From NCBI GenBank assembly GCA_024278075.1, contig JAJRTW010000043.1, positions 1-50,848 on the forward strand: a DNA stretch of 50,848 bases, written 5' to 3'. The notes below the pieces were generated by a model. The model ran no database searches. It had not been told where the DNA came from and worked only from the letters and a program-made list of their open reading frames with translations. Every line of letters starts with the position of its first letter. Positions within the stretch are counted from its first letter, which is position 1. The position numbers and the translations under genes were made by a program. The DNA comes from Bacteroidota bacterium. GTDB taxonomy: Bacteria > Bacteroidota > Ignavibacteria > Kapaibacteriales > UBA2268. Positions 41,756 through 50,526 of this stretch are shown here, one piece after another.

Positions 41756-42358
41756 TTACATAGCCCTTTTGACAGCTTTCATAAAAGCCTTATAGGTCGA
41801 GAAGCCAATGATTTTCTCAGCAATTTTCTTATCCTTCCCGATAATATAAGTAGTGGGAACAGAAGGAATGCCGCCGTAAGAATCAGTCAATGCCTTTAAT
41901 TCTTTATTGGCAGGATACTTCCCAGTTAAATTTATATAATTAATACCTTTTTTATCGACAAACCCGCTTACCTGTTTAATTGCGGCGGCGTCGTTGCTGC
42001 TGCGCTCCATCGCTATGCCGATTACAACAAAATCCTTATTGCCCAATTCCTTATTTATTTTAATAATATCGGGGATTTCCCTGCGGCACGGCGGACACCA
42101 AGTACCCCAGAAATTCAGGAATACAACTTTGCCTTTGGTATATTCATTGAATGATACTTTTTTCCCGTTCTGTATCCAATAAAAATTAGTAGCATACCCC
42201 TTTTTACCTTTTTCGGTTTTGCTAATTTTATAGACATCTACCTTAGAGGATGATTTGTGCGGTGCGGCAGAAATCGATTCCGAATTCTGATTGAAAAACA
42301 CCATCCCGACTACTATCAATCCAAGTACAATCCAAAGTAAATTCAATCTCTTTTTCAA
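41756..42358 (-). CDS. TlpA/ResA-type thiol-disulfide oxidoreductase
   Basis: 200 residues, TTG start with GGAG upstream. One N-terminal membrane anchor (about 5-22) places the domain in the periplasm. The thioredoxin fold has WCPPC (Trp87, Cys88, Cys91) in FWGTWCPPCRREIP, a cis-Pro region in GGIPSVPTTYII and a final beta strand/helix. In cytochrome c maturation such proteins (CcmG, ResA) reduce apocytochrome haem-binding cysteines before ligation. Its place directly after ccmF on the same strand supports that role. A general ResA/TlpA role is the alternative. It is the only candidate for CcmG here. Confidence 0.9.
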   Translation of the reverse strand: MKKRLNLLWIVLGLIVVGMVFFNQNSESISAAPHKSSSKVDVYKISKTEKGKKGYATNFYWIQNGKKVSFNEYTKGKVVFLNFWGTWCPPCRREIPDIIKINKELGNKDFVVIGIAMERSSNDAAAIKQVSGFVDKKGINYINLTGKYPANKELKALTDSYGGIPSVPTTYIIGKDKKIAEKIIGFSTYKAFMKAVKRAM

Positions 42359-45130: not shown

Positions 45131-45517
45131 TTATGAAGATTTAAGTTCTTCGCCATCGCCTTCGTATTTCGATGGGCATTTCGTCAGAATTTCGGAAGCC
45201 CTGAACACATCGCCGTTGAACTTCCCCTTGATGACAAGCTCGGGAGCTATATCGAAATTATTCGGCTTTCCTCCGTCGAAAATAATTTTTGTCACATTGC
45301 TTTCTTCATCTTCCATATAGAAAATGAATTGATTATTTTCTACATCATAGTCATAATCATGCTCTTTCACCCACGAGCCAATTACCTGGACTGTCTTGCC
45401 GGTTTCACGTGCTTCAAGAAAATCTGTGTATTCGATCTTGCTGCTATCAAATGAATATATAGCCAGAATCAAAAACAAGACTCCGATTATCGAACCAACA
45501 ATATATCTTGGTTTCAT
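45131..45517 (-). CDS. ccmE: haem chaperone CcmE, cysteine variant
   Basis: 128 residues from ATG 45517, which has GGAGG 5 bases upstream; the longer TTG-started frame lacks that spacing. One membrane anchor (about 5-21) precedes a six-strand OB-fold (about 35-115) in the periplasm. At the end of the domain, where classical CcmE has the haem-binding HxxxY, this protein has C114-P-S-K-Y118 in EILTKCPSKY. Cys-for-His CcmE proteins occur in the variant system I* of Desulfovibrio and archaea and bind haem through the Cys. Placed between ccmD and ccmF, its job is to carry haem from CcmC to CcmF. Confidence 0.92.
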   Translation of the reverse strand: MKPRYIVGSIIGVLFLILAIYSFDSSKIEYTDFLEARETGKTVQVIGSWVKEHDYDYDVENNQFIFYMEDEESNVTKIIFDGGKPNNFDIAPELVIKGKFNGDVFRASEILTKCPSKYEGDGEELKSS

Positions 45518-45615
45518 TGCATCCTCCAATCTATTCGTTAGTATTATATCAATTTAAAGTATATCAATTAAGTTTAGTATGCAAAAATAGCGGAATATTC
45601 AAAATCAGGCAACCA

Positions 45616-45890: not shown

Positions 45891-46050
45891 TTATTCAAAA
45901 AATATCCAAAACACCTGACAGGCAATGGCTAACAGATATTTATGATAACTCAATAATAAGCCAAATATTTTCACCGTGCTACCGGACTAACTCGAATAAT
46001 TCCGAAGAAATACGAAGCTCTTGAGTAAAAGTCCCGCAATAAGCGGGTTA
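45891..46050 (+). repeat. repeat element B3 (165-bp family)
   Basis: Third co-oriented copy: cccgtattattcaaaa at left, the internal blocks acacctgacaggcaatgg, acagatatttatgataactcaataataagccaa and atacgaagctcttgagtaaaagtcccgcaataagcgggtta at right. Its last three bases (tta) are the stop codon of ccmC on the other strand. A half copy of the left end (attaacccgcattat) is at about 45823. Confidence 0.85.
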
Positions 46051-47127
46051 TACTGACAGCCTTCGGCTTGCGGCAGAGTATTTAGTTTTGATATTATCAT
46101 ATCTGATTGCCAGGCTCATCATCCAGAAATAAATAATGATAAAACCGGCAAGTGCCAGCCCAAAGGCATAAAGCAGGCTGGAATCCAGCATCCCGGGCTG
46201 ATTGCTAACCACCGGCCCGGCTGTGTCCTCGCCCTTTGCACCCGGGTGCAGCCCGGAGAACATTCTCGGCAATATGAAAACAAAAAACGGCACTGTCAAA
46301 AAGGCTATTATCGAATAAACCGAACTCAGCCGCGCTTTCAAATCCTCGCGGTCAAGAGCCGAACGCAAGGCAAAGTAGGCCGCATAAATCAGCATAAGCA
46401 CAAGGATTGATGTTTGCCGCGGGTCCCAATTCCAGAAGCTGCCCCAATTAAATTTTGCCCAAATCATGCCGGTAACTGTTGCAAGTATGGTAAATACGAA
46501 TCCCAATGCCGCCGAACTTGAGGCGTAGAGGTCGTACTTCAGGTCGCGCCTCCGCAGGTACAATATAGAGTAAATCATCGACACCATATAGGCTACCACA
46601 GATACCCAGGCCATGGGGACATGAAATACCATAATCCTTATTTTATCCTGCAACGCCGGCAAATACGGGTATGTCATCAGCGGGGCAATTGATTTAGTAT
46701 GATTGTATATGAAGCGGTTGCTATCTTTGTCGTAATTCAGGTTGGCAACAATCATCTTATCGGTAGTGAATTCATCGGGCAAATCTTTCTGATTAATTAT
46801 TATTATTTGCGGTACTGCATTGCCGCTTGAGCCTGCCTCCGGGTTACGGGTGGATAATACCCAATAATTACCTGCGCTGTTAAATTCGGGCGAACCGTCG
46901 AGTACATTGAACTTCACATCGATAGTATAGCCATCGGTGATGTTGTTCATGATTTTTAATTGCGAAAAACTGCCGGCGGTTGGTGTCAGGAATACAAGAA
47001 CAGATGCAATTGCTACGAATAATATTGCCACCCAGCGCCATATTATCGGGCGCGGCTTTGTGAAATGGGGAATGAATCCGAAGAGAACCCCTATTATTAC
47101 GGCCGAAAACATTACTATGAATTTCAT
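46048..47127 (-). CDS. ccmC: CcmC-type haem exporter with enlarged periplasmic loop
   Basis: 359 residues, about 110 more than typical CcmC. The extra part is an added N-terminal helix (3-21) and a soluble insert of about residues 52-158 between the first core helix (about 30-50) and the second, which starts KIRIMVFHVPMAWVS. The CcmC core is clear: His169 in FHVPMAW, WWD-type WNWDPRQTS (231-239) in the second periplasmic loop, and His294 in SGLHPGAKG, the second axial haem ligand. CcmC binds haem and loads it onto CcmE. The insert contains LPDEF...VANLNYD...F..NHTKS, similar to the last strands of the CcmE OB-fold. The stop codon falls in repeat B3. Start ATG with a weak GAAG. Confidence 0.88.
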   Translation of the reverse strand: MKFIVMFSAVIIGVLFGFIPHFTKPRPIIWRWVAILFVAIASVLVFLTPTAGSFSQLKIMNNITDGYTIDVKFNVLDGSPEFNSAGNYWVLSTRNPEAGSSGNAVPQIIIINQKDLPDEFTTDKMIVANLNYDKDSNRFIYNHTKSIAPLMTYPYLPALQDKIRIMVFHVPMAWVSVVAYMVSMIYSILYLRRRDLKYDLYASSSAALGFVFTILATVTGMIWAKFNWGSFWNWDPRQTSILVLMLIYAAYFALRSALDREDLKARLSSVYSIIAFLTVPFFVFILPRMFSGLHPGAKGEDTAGPVVSNQPGMLDSSLLYAFGLALAGFIIIYFWMMSLAIRYDNIKTKYSAASRRLSV

Positions 47128-47487: not shown

Positions 47488-47928
47488 TTACTGGAGCAGT
47501 TTGATTAATTTCAATACGTTCTGCGGCCTGGATTTTGAGGACGGAGAGTATTTAATATCGTCCATAACAAGTTTCATCAGGTGGATGCCCAGCCCGCCTT
47601 TTCTGAATTCCTTTAAATATTTCTTCATATTGGGCGAGTTCACATCCAATGGGTTGAAAGGCTCGCCATCATCAAGAATTTTTACAACGAACCGACGCCC
47701 GGATGTTTCAACTTCAACACAGAATTGCTTACTTTTGTCGAGATGATAGGCGTGCTGGATTAAATTGGTGCACGCCTCGTCGACGGCAAGAGCTATTTGG
47801 TTGGCTTCATCTGCGCCGAAACCAAATAATTCTGCTTTCGTCGAAACGAATTTCCGAACCTTTCTCAATTCGGAATATTTGCCGGGAGCGCAAATAAGAT
47901 TACTGTATGTGTCGTTTCTACTATACAT
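47488..47928 (-). CDS. anti-sigma factor / serine-protein kinase (RsbW-like)
   Basis: 146 residues from ATG 47928, which follows the STAS stop by one base (tag-a-atg). Another in-frame ATG at 47937 sits two bases from AAGGG and could also be used; longer frames overlap the STAS gene heavily. It is a GHKL ATPase with the N box VDEACTNLIQHAY, the DDG box (ILDDGEPF) and GGLGIHLMK (G2). Such proteins bind sigma factors, or other targets, and phosphorylate the STAS antagonist. It pairs with the gene just upstream and with the phosphatase beyond. Confidence 0.9.
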   Translation of the reverse strand: MYSRNDTYSNLICAPGKYSELRKVRKFVSTKAELFGFGADEANQIALAVDEACTNLIQHAYHLDKSKQFCVEVETSGRRFVVKILDDGEPFNPLDVNSPNMKKYLKEFRKGGLGIHLMKLVMDDIKYSPSSKSRPQNVLKLIKLLQ

Positions 47929-47929
47929 T

Positions 47930-48307
47930 CTATACATCGCCCTTAATGTCGCCATTTGCAAATTTTTGTAAAGCACTTTCATCCTCTTTATCAATATCAA
48001 AAAGCATGGGAAAACCAAGCAGGTCGAACACCGAAAAGACTTTGGGGTTCATTTCGGTCAATTTAATATCGCCGCCGGATTTCCTTAAATCTTCTATAAA
48101 AGCCATGAAAACCCCCAACCCGGCACTGCTTATATAATCCAGGTTGCGGAAATTCACTAAAATCATTTTCCTGCCATCTTTAATCAGTTTGTCAATTGAA
48201 GATTCTAGTTCAGGCGCAGTCAATGCATCTAAGTATCCATGGAGGTGCAGGCAATCGACTTCTCCGTTGGTTCGGTGCATTATCGAGAATTTGTTTTTTT
48301 CTGTCAT
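47930..48307 (-). CDS. STAS-domain anti-sigma factor antagonist (RsbV-like)
   Basis: 125 residues; GAAGGGATT-ATG gives a strong start. A single STAS domain with the phospho-acceptor serine in YISSAGLGVFMA (about 58-69). The unphosphorylated form binds the RsbW-like kinase and frees its target. Next to the kinase gene and the PP2C phosphatase gene it completes a partner switch. No sigma-factor gene is in the window, so the regulated target is unknown. Confidence 0.93.
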   Translation of the reverse strand: MTEKNKFSIMHRTNGEVDCLHLHGYLDALTAPELESSIDKLIKDGRKMILVNFRNLDYISSAGLGVFMAFIEDLRKSGGDIKLTEMNPKVFSVFDLLGFPMLFDIDKEDESALQKFANGDIKGDV

Positions 48308-48417
48308 AATCCCTTCTCTCAGGTTTAATATATAAATAACCGGAATTTGAACTACAAAAGTATGTATGTTTTATTTTATATTAAATAAAAATTATTCTAA
48401 GAACCGTTCCATAGTTC

Positions 48418-50526
48418 TTAGTTACCGTTAAAAACGATTGAAAAAACTGTCATATCGTCGTGCTGAATGCCATTAACCGAATGTCCGGCAAGGGCATTCC
48501 GAATGTCTATGTCAATTTCCTTAGCATCTCGCGGATTGGCCATGGCGGCAATTCTTTTAAGTGGCTCGAGGCCAAACTCGGAGTTGTCTGCTCCAAGCAA
48601 TTCATTCACACCATCGGTGAATAGCAGGCAAACGTCATTTCGGCTCAATGTTAACTCAATCTCTTCAAGCACCGGATCGAAAATATCCGGGCCAACCAGT
48701 CCAATACCCAGGCCCTTTGGCGTCATTAGATTGACAATGGATTCGGCCTTGATAACCAAAGGCGTATGGCCGGCGCGTGCAAACCTTAACATCCCGCTAT
48801 TATTAACTATCTCAACAGCGCTAACGGTTACGAACATTTGCTTTTCCATGGATCGGATCAATGTCTCGTTCATACGCATCAGCAGGTCTGCCGGGCCGCT
48901 TGCTATTTTAGAGTGCGCCAGCAGCACGCCCTTTACGTGGGCCATAAAAAATGCTGCGTTCATCCCCTTGCCCGATACATCACCGATAACTACGCAGGGA
49001 TTGCCATTCGACAGATTCACCACGTCATAGAAATCACCGCCGACCACATCGGCCGGCAACGAGAATGCAGATATAGAATAGTTCTGAATTTCCTGCAATT
49101 CCGATGGCAGTAATTTTTGCTGCATCTCTTTGGCTATTTGCAGTTCGCGGCGGTAATGTTCATTTTCTATTGCTTCTTTCAGCAGCCTGGAGTTGTCTAT
49201 TGCGATAGAGACGTTCTCTGAAAATGCTGTCATTACGTTGATTGCATCCGGCTCGAACCCAAATTCATCATGCTTGCAGACGATTAGTGACCCTATTCTC
49301 TCTTTGCCGGTAATGATTGGAGTAATTATCATTGACGAGGCAAAAGGTAATAATTTCTTGAGGAAATGAAATTCCTCGCTCTCCGGAATAGAGCTTATAT
49401 AATAAGGCCTGTCGAAGGCTGTGAATTTATCCTTTAATGCAAATTGTTGATGAACCTCGACGATTCTCTGCGGATTAAAATTAGTTGCTGACATGATCCT
49501 TATCCTGCCGCTGTCGTATATCTCTGTCCAGGCAGCTTCGGCGGAGGTTGAATTCATTGCCAACTTGGTAACAATCTCTATTAGGTCTTCGAACTCAACA
49601 TTTCTTGCAACTATATTATTAAGATAAGACAAGGAACTGATTCCCTGGCTGTGCCTTTCGACAATATCGGAAGTGGGAAGGGCCGCAACAGCCGACAGGA
49701 AAATTCTGGCTAATAATGCAATTAAATAGACATAGCTCATGGCAACTATCGGCACAAGGCCGGAAAGATAGTGGAGAAAGGATTTGTAGAAATCCGAATT
49801 ATCATCAAAGGCGTAAAACAGGATTATAAATGACAATATTATTTGAAGTGTGGACTGAAGAATCAGCTTTCCCTTTTCATTGCCGGGCAGTAATGCTATC
49901 CATGTGTTTTTCCTGGCCGTTGTCATTGTGACAGCAAGGAGTATAACAAAAATTATTGCCCCTACCACTCCTGCTATATCCTGATTAATTGATGTCCAGT
50001 AGATATCGACAAGCACGAAATAAATCAATGAAAAAGATAATATTTTGATGTTGCGTTTAGTTTTTTTATGCCTTCGTATCATCAGCCATTTATGTAGAAA
50101 TTTGTAAACAAACAGGCTTGTAAACAGCCCGAAAGCATCGAACAGTTCGATATAGAGAAGTGAAAAAATATTGCCCGGACGGCTGTTTTGGCTTGTTATA
50201 TCGGGCAGAAAGAAAATTGAAATAATAAATGCTGTCGTAAGAATAATTATCCATCTTAGGTCTTTAAAAAAATTAACTGTCAGATTATCCATTTTCCCGA
50301 TGGATTCCTTGTTAGACCTATAGAAATAGATGATCACAGGAAAGACAATAGCAAAAGCGGCCAATACATTCCATATTGCGATAACTGGATTATCAAGGAG
50401 ATTGAACGTAAAAAATACGATATTCCCCAATATCCTGACTATCAGGACAGCAGCAGCCAATGCAAGCAATAAGAAGTTATTCGCCTGGTTTATGATATAT
50501 GGCTTATTTCTTTTTAAGTTCTTCAT
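48418..50526 (-). CDS. membrane PP2C-type phosphatase (SpoIIE/RsbU) with GAF domain
   Basis: 702 residues. About eight membrane segments (20-290) are followed by a GAF domain (about 300-455, with AVEFEDLIEIVTKLAM-like linker and IAIDNSRLLKEA end helix), a short coiled coil (EHYRRELQIAKEMQQKLLP) and a PP2C/SpoIIE domain (about 475-702) with metal-binding DVVGGDFYD, IGDVSGKGM and FTDGVNE. It dephosphorylates the STAS protein encoded next, in response to a signal read by the membrane part or the GAF domain. It is the first gene of the three-gene set on the minus strand. Confidence 0.93.
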   Translation of the reverse strand: MKNLKRNKPYIINQANNFLLLALAAAVLIVRILGNIVFFTFNLLDNPVIAIWNVLAAFAIVFPVIIYFYRSNKESIGKMDNLTVNFFKDLRWIIILTTAFIISIFFLPDITSQNSRPGNIFSLLYIELFDAFGLFTSLFVYKFLHKWLMIRRHKKTKRNIKILSFSLIYFVLVDIYWTSINQDIAGVVGAIIFVILLAVTMTTARKNTWIALLPGNEKGKLILQSTLQIILSFIILFYAFDDNSDFYKSFLHYLSGLVPIVAMSYVYLIALLARIFLSAVAALPTSDIVERHSQGISSLSYLNNIVARNVEFEDLIEIVTKLAMNSTSAEAAWTEIYDSGRIRIMSATNFNPQRIVEVHQQFALKDKFTAFDRPYYISSIPESEEFHFLKKLLPFASSMIITPIITGKERIGSLIVCKHDEFGFEPDAINVMTAFSENVSIAIDNSRLLKEAIENEHYRRELQIAKEMQQKLLPSELQEIQNYSISAFSLPADVVGGDFYDVVNLSNGNPCVVIGDVSGKGMNAAFFMAHVKGVLLAHSKIASGPADLLMRMNETLIRSMEKQMFVTVSAVEIVNNSGMLRFARAGHTPLVIKAESIVNLMTPKGLGIGLVGPDIFDPVLEEIELTLSRNDVCLLFTDGVNELLGADNSEFGLEPLKRIAAMANPRDAKEIDIDIRNALAGHSVNGIQHDDMTVFSIVFNGN

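Follow-up and report, generated by a model that had tools for sequence, protein, structure and literature searches.

A predicted OB domain related to CcmE, without the haem-binding tail, lies within the CcmC of a Kapaibacteriales bacterium

The ccm locus and its surroundings

The window, that is, the whole stretch of DNA analysed here, is contig JAJRTW010000043.1 (50,848 nucleotides) of a Bacteroidota bacterium (Kapaibacteriales; UBA2268; assembly GCA_024278075.1). It carries a ccmC gene whose product contains an additional domain, followed downstream on the same strand by genes for CcmD_alt, CcmE, CcmF and a CcmG/ResA-like protein (Table 1). The ccmB gene of this genome lies on a different contig from ccmC, so co-expression of the two genes in one operon is not given. 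CcmH (PF03918) was found in none of 20 genomes (that of the window and 19 relatives), with a model that was positive in four controls. The CPSKY motif of CcmE, the gene neighbours and the 0/20 result for PF03918 are the grounds on which the ccm surroundings are classed, by sequence, as a variant System I with a CXXXY-type CcmE and without CcmH. PMC9084895 treats this variant with regard to archaea and certain bacteria, and the CPSKY CcmE and the lack of detectable CcmH in the 20 genomes are features shared with the window. An insert in CcmC, in contrast, is not mentioned in the literature consulted on that system.

Upstream of ccmC, on the same strand (47488-50526), the window encodes a HATPase_c_2 protein and a STAS protein (both by Pfam) and a 702-residue protein which, by eye only, has the look of a PP2C-type phosphatase; these genes possibly form a partner-switching module. 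Two further Cytochrom_C_asm proteins are encoded in the window's genome, at G000:C27:7489-8115 (763-residue frame) and G000:C124:15392-15976 (282-residue frame), and may represent another CcmF and a protein resembling CcsA, respectively.

Table 1. Features of the ccm locus in the window, with their coordinates, strand and the basis of each assignment
Feature	Coordinates	Strand	Basis
CcmC with insert, 359 aa	46048..47127	-	PF01578 1.6e-30; TIGR01191 3.2e-30; E. coli CcmC 8e-15
Extra N-terminal TM helix, residues 2-18	47074..47124	-	DSSP on predicted model; alignments
Inserted CcmE-like OB domain (predicted), residues 52-147	46687..46974	-	AlphaFold2; Foldseek; hhalign; genome profiles; empty site
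His169, first haem ligand (= E. coli His60)	46621..46623	-	Invariant, n=45; E. coli CcmC alignment
WNWD haem-handling motif, residues 232-235	46423..46434	-	W232, D235 invariant; N233, W234 nearly
His294, second haem ligand (= E. coli His184)	46246..46248	-	Invariant, n=45
CcmD-like single-TM protein, 50 aa	45616..45768	-	PF20077 CcmD_alt, at cut-off, 23.5 bits
CcmE, Cys-type haem chaperone; likely ATG at 45517	45131..45529	-	PF03100 9.8e-13
CPSKY motif of CcmE	45164-45178	-	Sequence
CcmF/NrfE-type haem lyase, 812 aa	42502..44940	-	PF01578 8e-28; PF16327 8e-25; TIGR03145 1.9e-78
CcmG/ResA-like thioredoxin (WCPPC)	41756..42358	-	PF08534 1.1e-17; ResA-type model 8.7e-19

The CcmC core and the position of the insert

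An earlier note on this DNA had described the CcmC core as normal on account of His169, WNWD and His294, and the comparison with homologues agrees with that description. The PF01578 (Cytochrom_C_asm) match covers residues 157-294 (E=1.6e-30), and His169, W232, D235 and His294 are invariant across 45 homologues. The closest PDB relative is E. coli CcmC, both by sequence (8e-15) and by structure (7f02_C; VIA-align Z 20.3, predicted model). The best NCBIfam match is the ccmC model TIGR01191 (3.2e-30), whose score of 105.4 bits stays below the model cut-off of 186; because the residues that characterise CcmC are all in place, this low score is read here as divergence. The transmembrane core fold, both ligand histidines, the WxWD motif and the equivalent of Arg55 (Arg164, just after the insert) are shared with E. 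coli CcmC (PDB 7f02/8ce1). Judged from these features, the window protein is a CcmC with an intact core. It differs from the E. coli protein, in which the TM1-TM2 loop is short, by about 96 extra residues forming the predicted OB domain and by an extra N-terminal TM helix.

The insert comprises about 96 residues (52-147) in the first periplasmic loop (TM1-TM2), between TM1 and His169. Alignments with insertless CcmC proteins of the class leave a clean empty site, and the presence of an insertion between the first core helix and His169, as proposed in the earlier note, thus stands. Its length, put there at about 105 residues, had to be reduced, since residues 148-168 belong to a conserved pre-His segment that is also found in the insertless relatives. 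In the predicted model TM1 corresponds to residues 28-47 and is preceded by a further TM helix (2-18), which had been overlooked. According to the alignments, this helix is missing from one-TM insert-bearing as well as insertless CcmC proteins of the class; CcmC of the window's order has it, as does that of family f13.

Identity of the insert

AlphaFold2 predicts an OB-fold for the insert with high confidence, both when it is modelled alone (residues 52-157 = 46657-46974; pLDDT 93.0) and within the whole protein (pLDDT 91.6). In a Foldseek comparison of the insert model with 350,542 PDB chains, the nearest solved structures were CcmE chains, at rank 1 (8ce8_E) and rank 2 (1sr3), and CcmE returned at rank 5 (1lm0) and rank 30; the probability of the matches at ranks 1, 2 and 5 was 1.00 and the best E-value 6e-3, all E-values being >0.001. 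Both outcomes are in line with the fold and kinship suggested in the earlier note. Structure alone makes the weaker case for CcmE, because VIA-align places CcmE (Z 7.5) level with many unrelated OB folds.

The relationship is also seen in sequence profiles. An hhalign comparison of 45 inserts with 31 CcmE sequences of the class gave a probability of 91.5 and a score of 38.0 over 86 collinear columns, while the best of 400 column shuffles reached 18.2 and the reversed alignment 15.9. Within this match the end of the insert (LPDEF...), in which a resemblance to CcmE had been pointed out before, pairs with the CcmE loop KPNNFDIAPE. A profile built from the insert only recovered, in 99 genomes of the class, 36 CcmC inserts and 10 other matches, all of them CcmE genes as located independently by PF03100. 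In 296 genomes of the phylum, a set overlapping with the former, it recovered 24 CcmC and 8 CcmE, four of the latter confirmed by direct reading, and no other match. The description of the insert as a CcmE-like domain is borne out by these profile matches, which reach only CcmC and CcmE, and by the failure of the other OB families tested. The expected match to the Pfam model of CcmE (PF03100), on the other hand, was not obtained: the window insert is unmatched, and over the 45 inserts there was a single match, with E=0.013. Routine domain annotation would therefore overlook the insert. A PDB-wide profile search with the insert brought up one related chain only, the Desulfovibrio CcmE 2kct, which came third, below two Wss1p chains, with an E-value of 1.4 that is not significant alone.

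An OB domain of other origin, from ComEC/DUF4131 or from a generic OB family, could resemble CcmE by fold only. DUF4131 is the N-terminus of ComEC and consists of two TM helices followed by an OB fold. Besides the many OB folds that equal CcmE by VIA-align Z, a sub-cut-off Pfam match of DUF4131 to residues 4-119 (E 1.6e-4) speaks for such an origin. It is nevertheless very unlikely, since hhalign probabilities against the ComEC OB and SSB sequences of the class do not exceed 1.1 (0.3-1.1 for the ComEC OB), compared with 55-92 for CcmE, and since neither in the 99 nor in the 296 genomes does the insert profile match a ComEC or SSB gene, two families that are common in this class. ComEC/DUF4131 was rejected as the source of the insert, because the match rests on the N-terminal TM and TM1 helices, the OB part giving the low probabilities stated above.

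Compared with CcmE (PF03100; 1sr3, 1lm0, 2kct, 8ce8_E), the insert shares the OB fold and the 86-column match, and both have a helix ahead of the first strand and a TM helix before the domain. Unlike CcmE, it lacks the His/Cys...Tyr tail, is part of CcmC instead of a separate protein, evolves much faster and escapes PF03100. Descent of the insert from the lineage's own CcmE is something that we infer only, since a tree of inserts and CcmE (~75 columns, low identity) is unlikely to resolve it.

The missing haem-binding tail and the separate CcmE

CcmE binds haem via His or Cys plus Tyr, in a tail that follows the barrel. This haem-attachment tail (HxxxY/CxxxY) was searched for in the insert alignment and is absent, the insert stopping at the point at which the tail of CcmE starts; in the window, IAP stands opposite the KCPSKY of CcmE, and a Cys within the last 34 residues before HVP occurs in 3 of 64 inserts. 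The separate CcmE was located at 110 loci with a motif that requires P-[SA]-[KR]-Y and allows His as well as Cys, and the adjacent CcmE carries CPSKY at all of them (85/85 insert-bearing and 25/25 insertless loci with CcmE found). The co-occurrence of the insert with a Cys-type CcmE, which the earlier note had raised, is therefore general at these loci. Since the haem tail is missing and a CPSKY CcmE adjoins, the insert does not replace CcmE; replacement was rejected also in view of the presence of CcmE (PF03100) in 98/99 genomes of the class. That the insert is a haem chaperone taking over from CcmE, as its homology to CcmE might suggest, is hardly conceivable given the loss of the attachment Cys/His and Tyr, the complete CcmE beside every one of these 85 inserts and the tethering of the insert to CcmC, which leaves it unable to shuttle to CcmF. 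Second, weaker PF03100 matches (E ~3e-5) in frames of ~116-120 residues were observed beside a normal CcmE at G049:C97, G065:C19 and G095:C110.

Distribution, history and evolutionary rate of the insert

Three states of CcmC occur within one class: insertless, insert with one TM helix, and insert with the extra N-terminal TM helix. Most families of the class have an insertless CcmC of 218-260 aa, in which hardly any residues separate TM1 from the segment FP-IPGLEE-ARIIFFHVP. The CcmC proteins of families f11 and f26 are mostly ~317-331 residues long and have the same TM1 and pre-His segment with ~96 residues between them, and those of the window's order have the insert plus the further N-terminal TM helix. 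The insert was found in 29/29 aligned homologues of the same order, so that the recurrence on which the earlier reading depended is seen throughout this set. As far as the collected homologues indicate, insert-bearing CcmC occurs in Kapabacteria together with a small number of sister families. At two same-order loci (L100 and L105) an insert of the usual length scores near zero with the insert profile and is probably the same domain, strongly diverged. The arrangement is no assembly artefact, because one insert-bearing locus (L102) belongs to a chromosome whose record (CP058732) lists it as complete and because dozens of genomes show the insert independently of one another. Insert-bearing CcmC proteins near the class were also met in MAGs titled Chloroherpeton thalassium and Ectothiorhodospiraceae (L132, L133), titles that are possibly wrong. 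In one genome of the same order (G028, 99% complete), CcmB and one 788-residue Cytochrom_C_asm frame were found, and no separate CcmC was matched.

In a tree built from the core only, the insert state changes 3 times, compared with a mean of 26.6 for shuffled labels. The insert may have been gained a single time and then lost in some lineages, since the starred branches of this tree force just 1 change.

The insert diverges faster than its surroundings: averaged over pairs from 64 genomes that have both ccmC and ccmE, identity is 19% between inserts, compared with 49% between CcmE proteins and 61% between CcmC cores. Between the closest pairs (dS <1), dN/dS is mostly 0.05-0.22 for the insert and 0.01-0.05 for the core, and in more distant pairs the value for the insert rises up to ~0.6. 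The insert thus appears to be selected to remain a folded domain. Its only invariant residue is the flanking Pro, its loops are highly variable, and no conserved surface patch was seen on it. This fast divergence without a conserved patch makes a specific docking face for the conserved CcmE less likely.

Discussion

CcmC hands haem to the carrier protein CcmE. Both proteins and the handover between them are known; what is new here is a haem-less CcmE barrel covalently merged into the donor CcmC, an arrangement of which no description was found in the open-access literature. The data support the view that the insert adopts an OB-fold and is a homologue of CcmE, located directly before the first haem-ligand His and without the haem-binding tail. 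It is probably a CcmE-derived domain, devoid of the haem ligand, that is accessory to the separate CcmE.

The site of the insertion is suggestive of a function. In E. coli CcmC, Asp47, Gln50 and Arg55, which lie in the same loop, are needed for the association of CcmC with CcmE, and Gln49 is needed for release (PMC6204919). A role of the insert in docking or haem positioning would fit this location of the CcmE-binding residues. According to the proposed scenario, the OB domain of CcmE would have been copied into ccmC and would now be a non-catalytic 'pseudo-chaperone' permanently held above the haem site of CcmC. In this position it could steer the true Cys-type CcmE, in a productive orientation, towards the haem bound at WxWD, or serve as a lid over this haem. 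In doing so, it would replace some of the contact that CcmC and CcmE form transiently at this loop in E. coli, while haem attachment and carriage would stay with the separate CcmE. Such a guide or lid role is tentatively favoured; we infer it from a predicted fold and from a site assigned by analogy with E. coli.

The main competing explanation is a purely structural role, given the unconserved surface of the insert. The insert would then be a passive element that keeps its fold, takes up space or makes the periplasmic face more rigid, and has no part in the haem handover. The fast divergence, the variable loops and the flanking Pro as the only invariant residue agree with this reading. The insert is, however, kept in all same-order CcmC proteins examined and is under purifying selection in close pairs, and a CcmE-derived domain placed by chance within the CcmE-docking loop would be an odd coincidence. 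A passive role is therefore regarded as somewhat unlikely.

The insert may instead contact CcmB or a second CcmCD unit, replacing the CcmE-CcmB contact and stabilising a Ccm(ABCD)2 assembly. In the cryo-EM structure from E. coli, CcmE contacts CcmB and not CcmC: its TM helix has CcmB as sole partner, and its barrel sits above the interface of CcmB and CcmC, the haem residues being over CcmB (PMC10457321). An AlphaFold2 model rotates the barrel by 90 degrees, over WxWD (PMC10457321). The experimental geometry speaks for a contact of the insert with CcmB, and the location of ccmB on another contig, with co-expression in one operon not given, is also counted in its favour. Nothing observed, however, points to CcmB in preference to other partners, and this analogy-based explanation is quite unlikely. 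The insert could also be an intermediate acceptor, holding the WxWD haem non-covalently and passing it to a CcmE docked as an OB-OB pair. This is improbable; if true, haem export would proceed via two CcmE-like domains acting as a built-in relay.

Summarizing, a carrier domain has apparently been recruited into its own donor after the loss of its cargo-binding residue. As to the handover of haem from CcmC to CcmE, the E. coli cryo-EM structure puts CcmE on CcmB, its haem residues being away from CcmC (PMC10457321), while mutagenesis indicates contacts with this CcmC loop (PMC6204919). A lineage in which a CcmE-type domain is covalently fixed there amounts to a natural experiment concerning the handover geometry, and insert-bearing CcmC may serve as a natural construct with which to trap the CcmC-CcmE complex.
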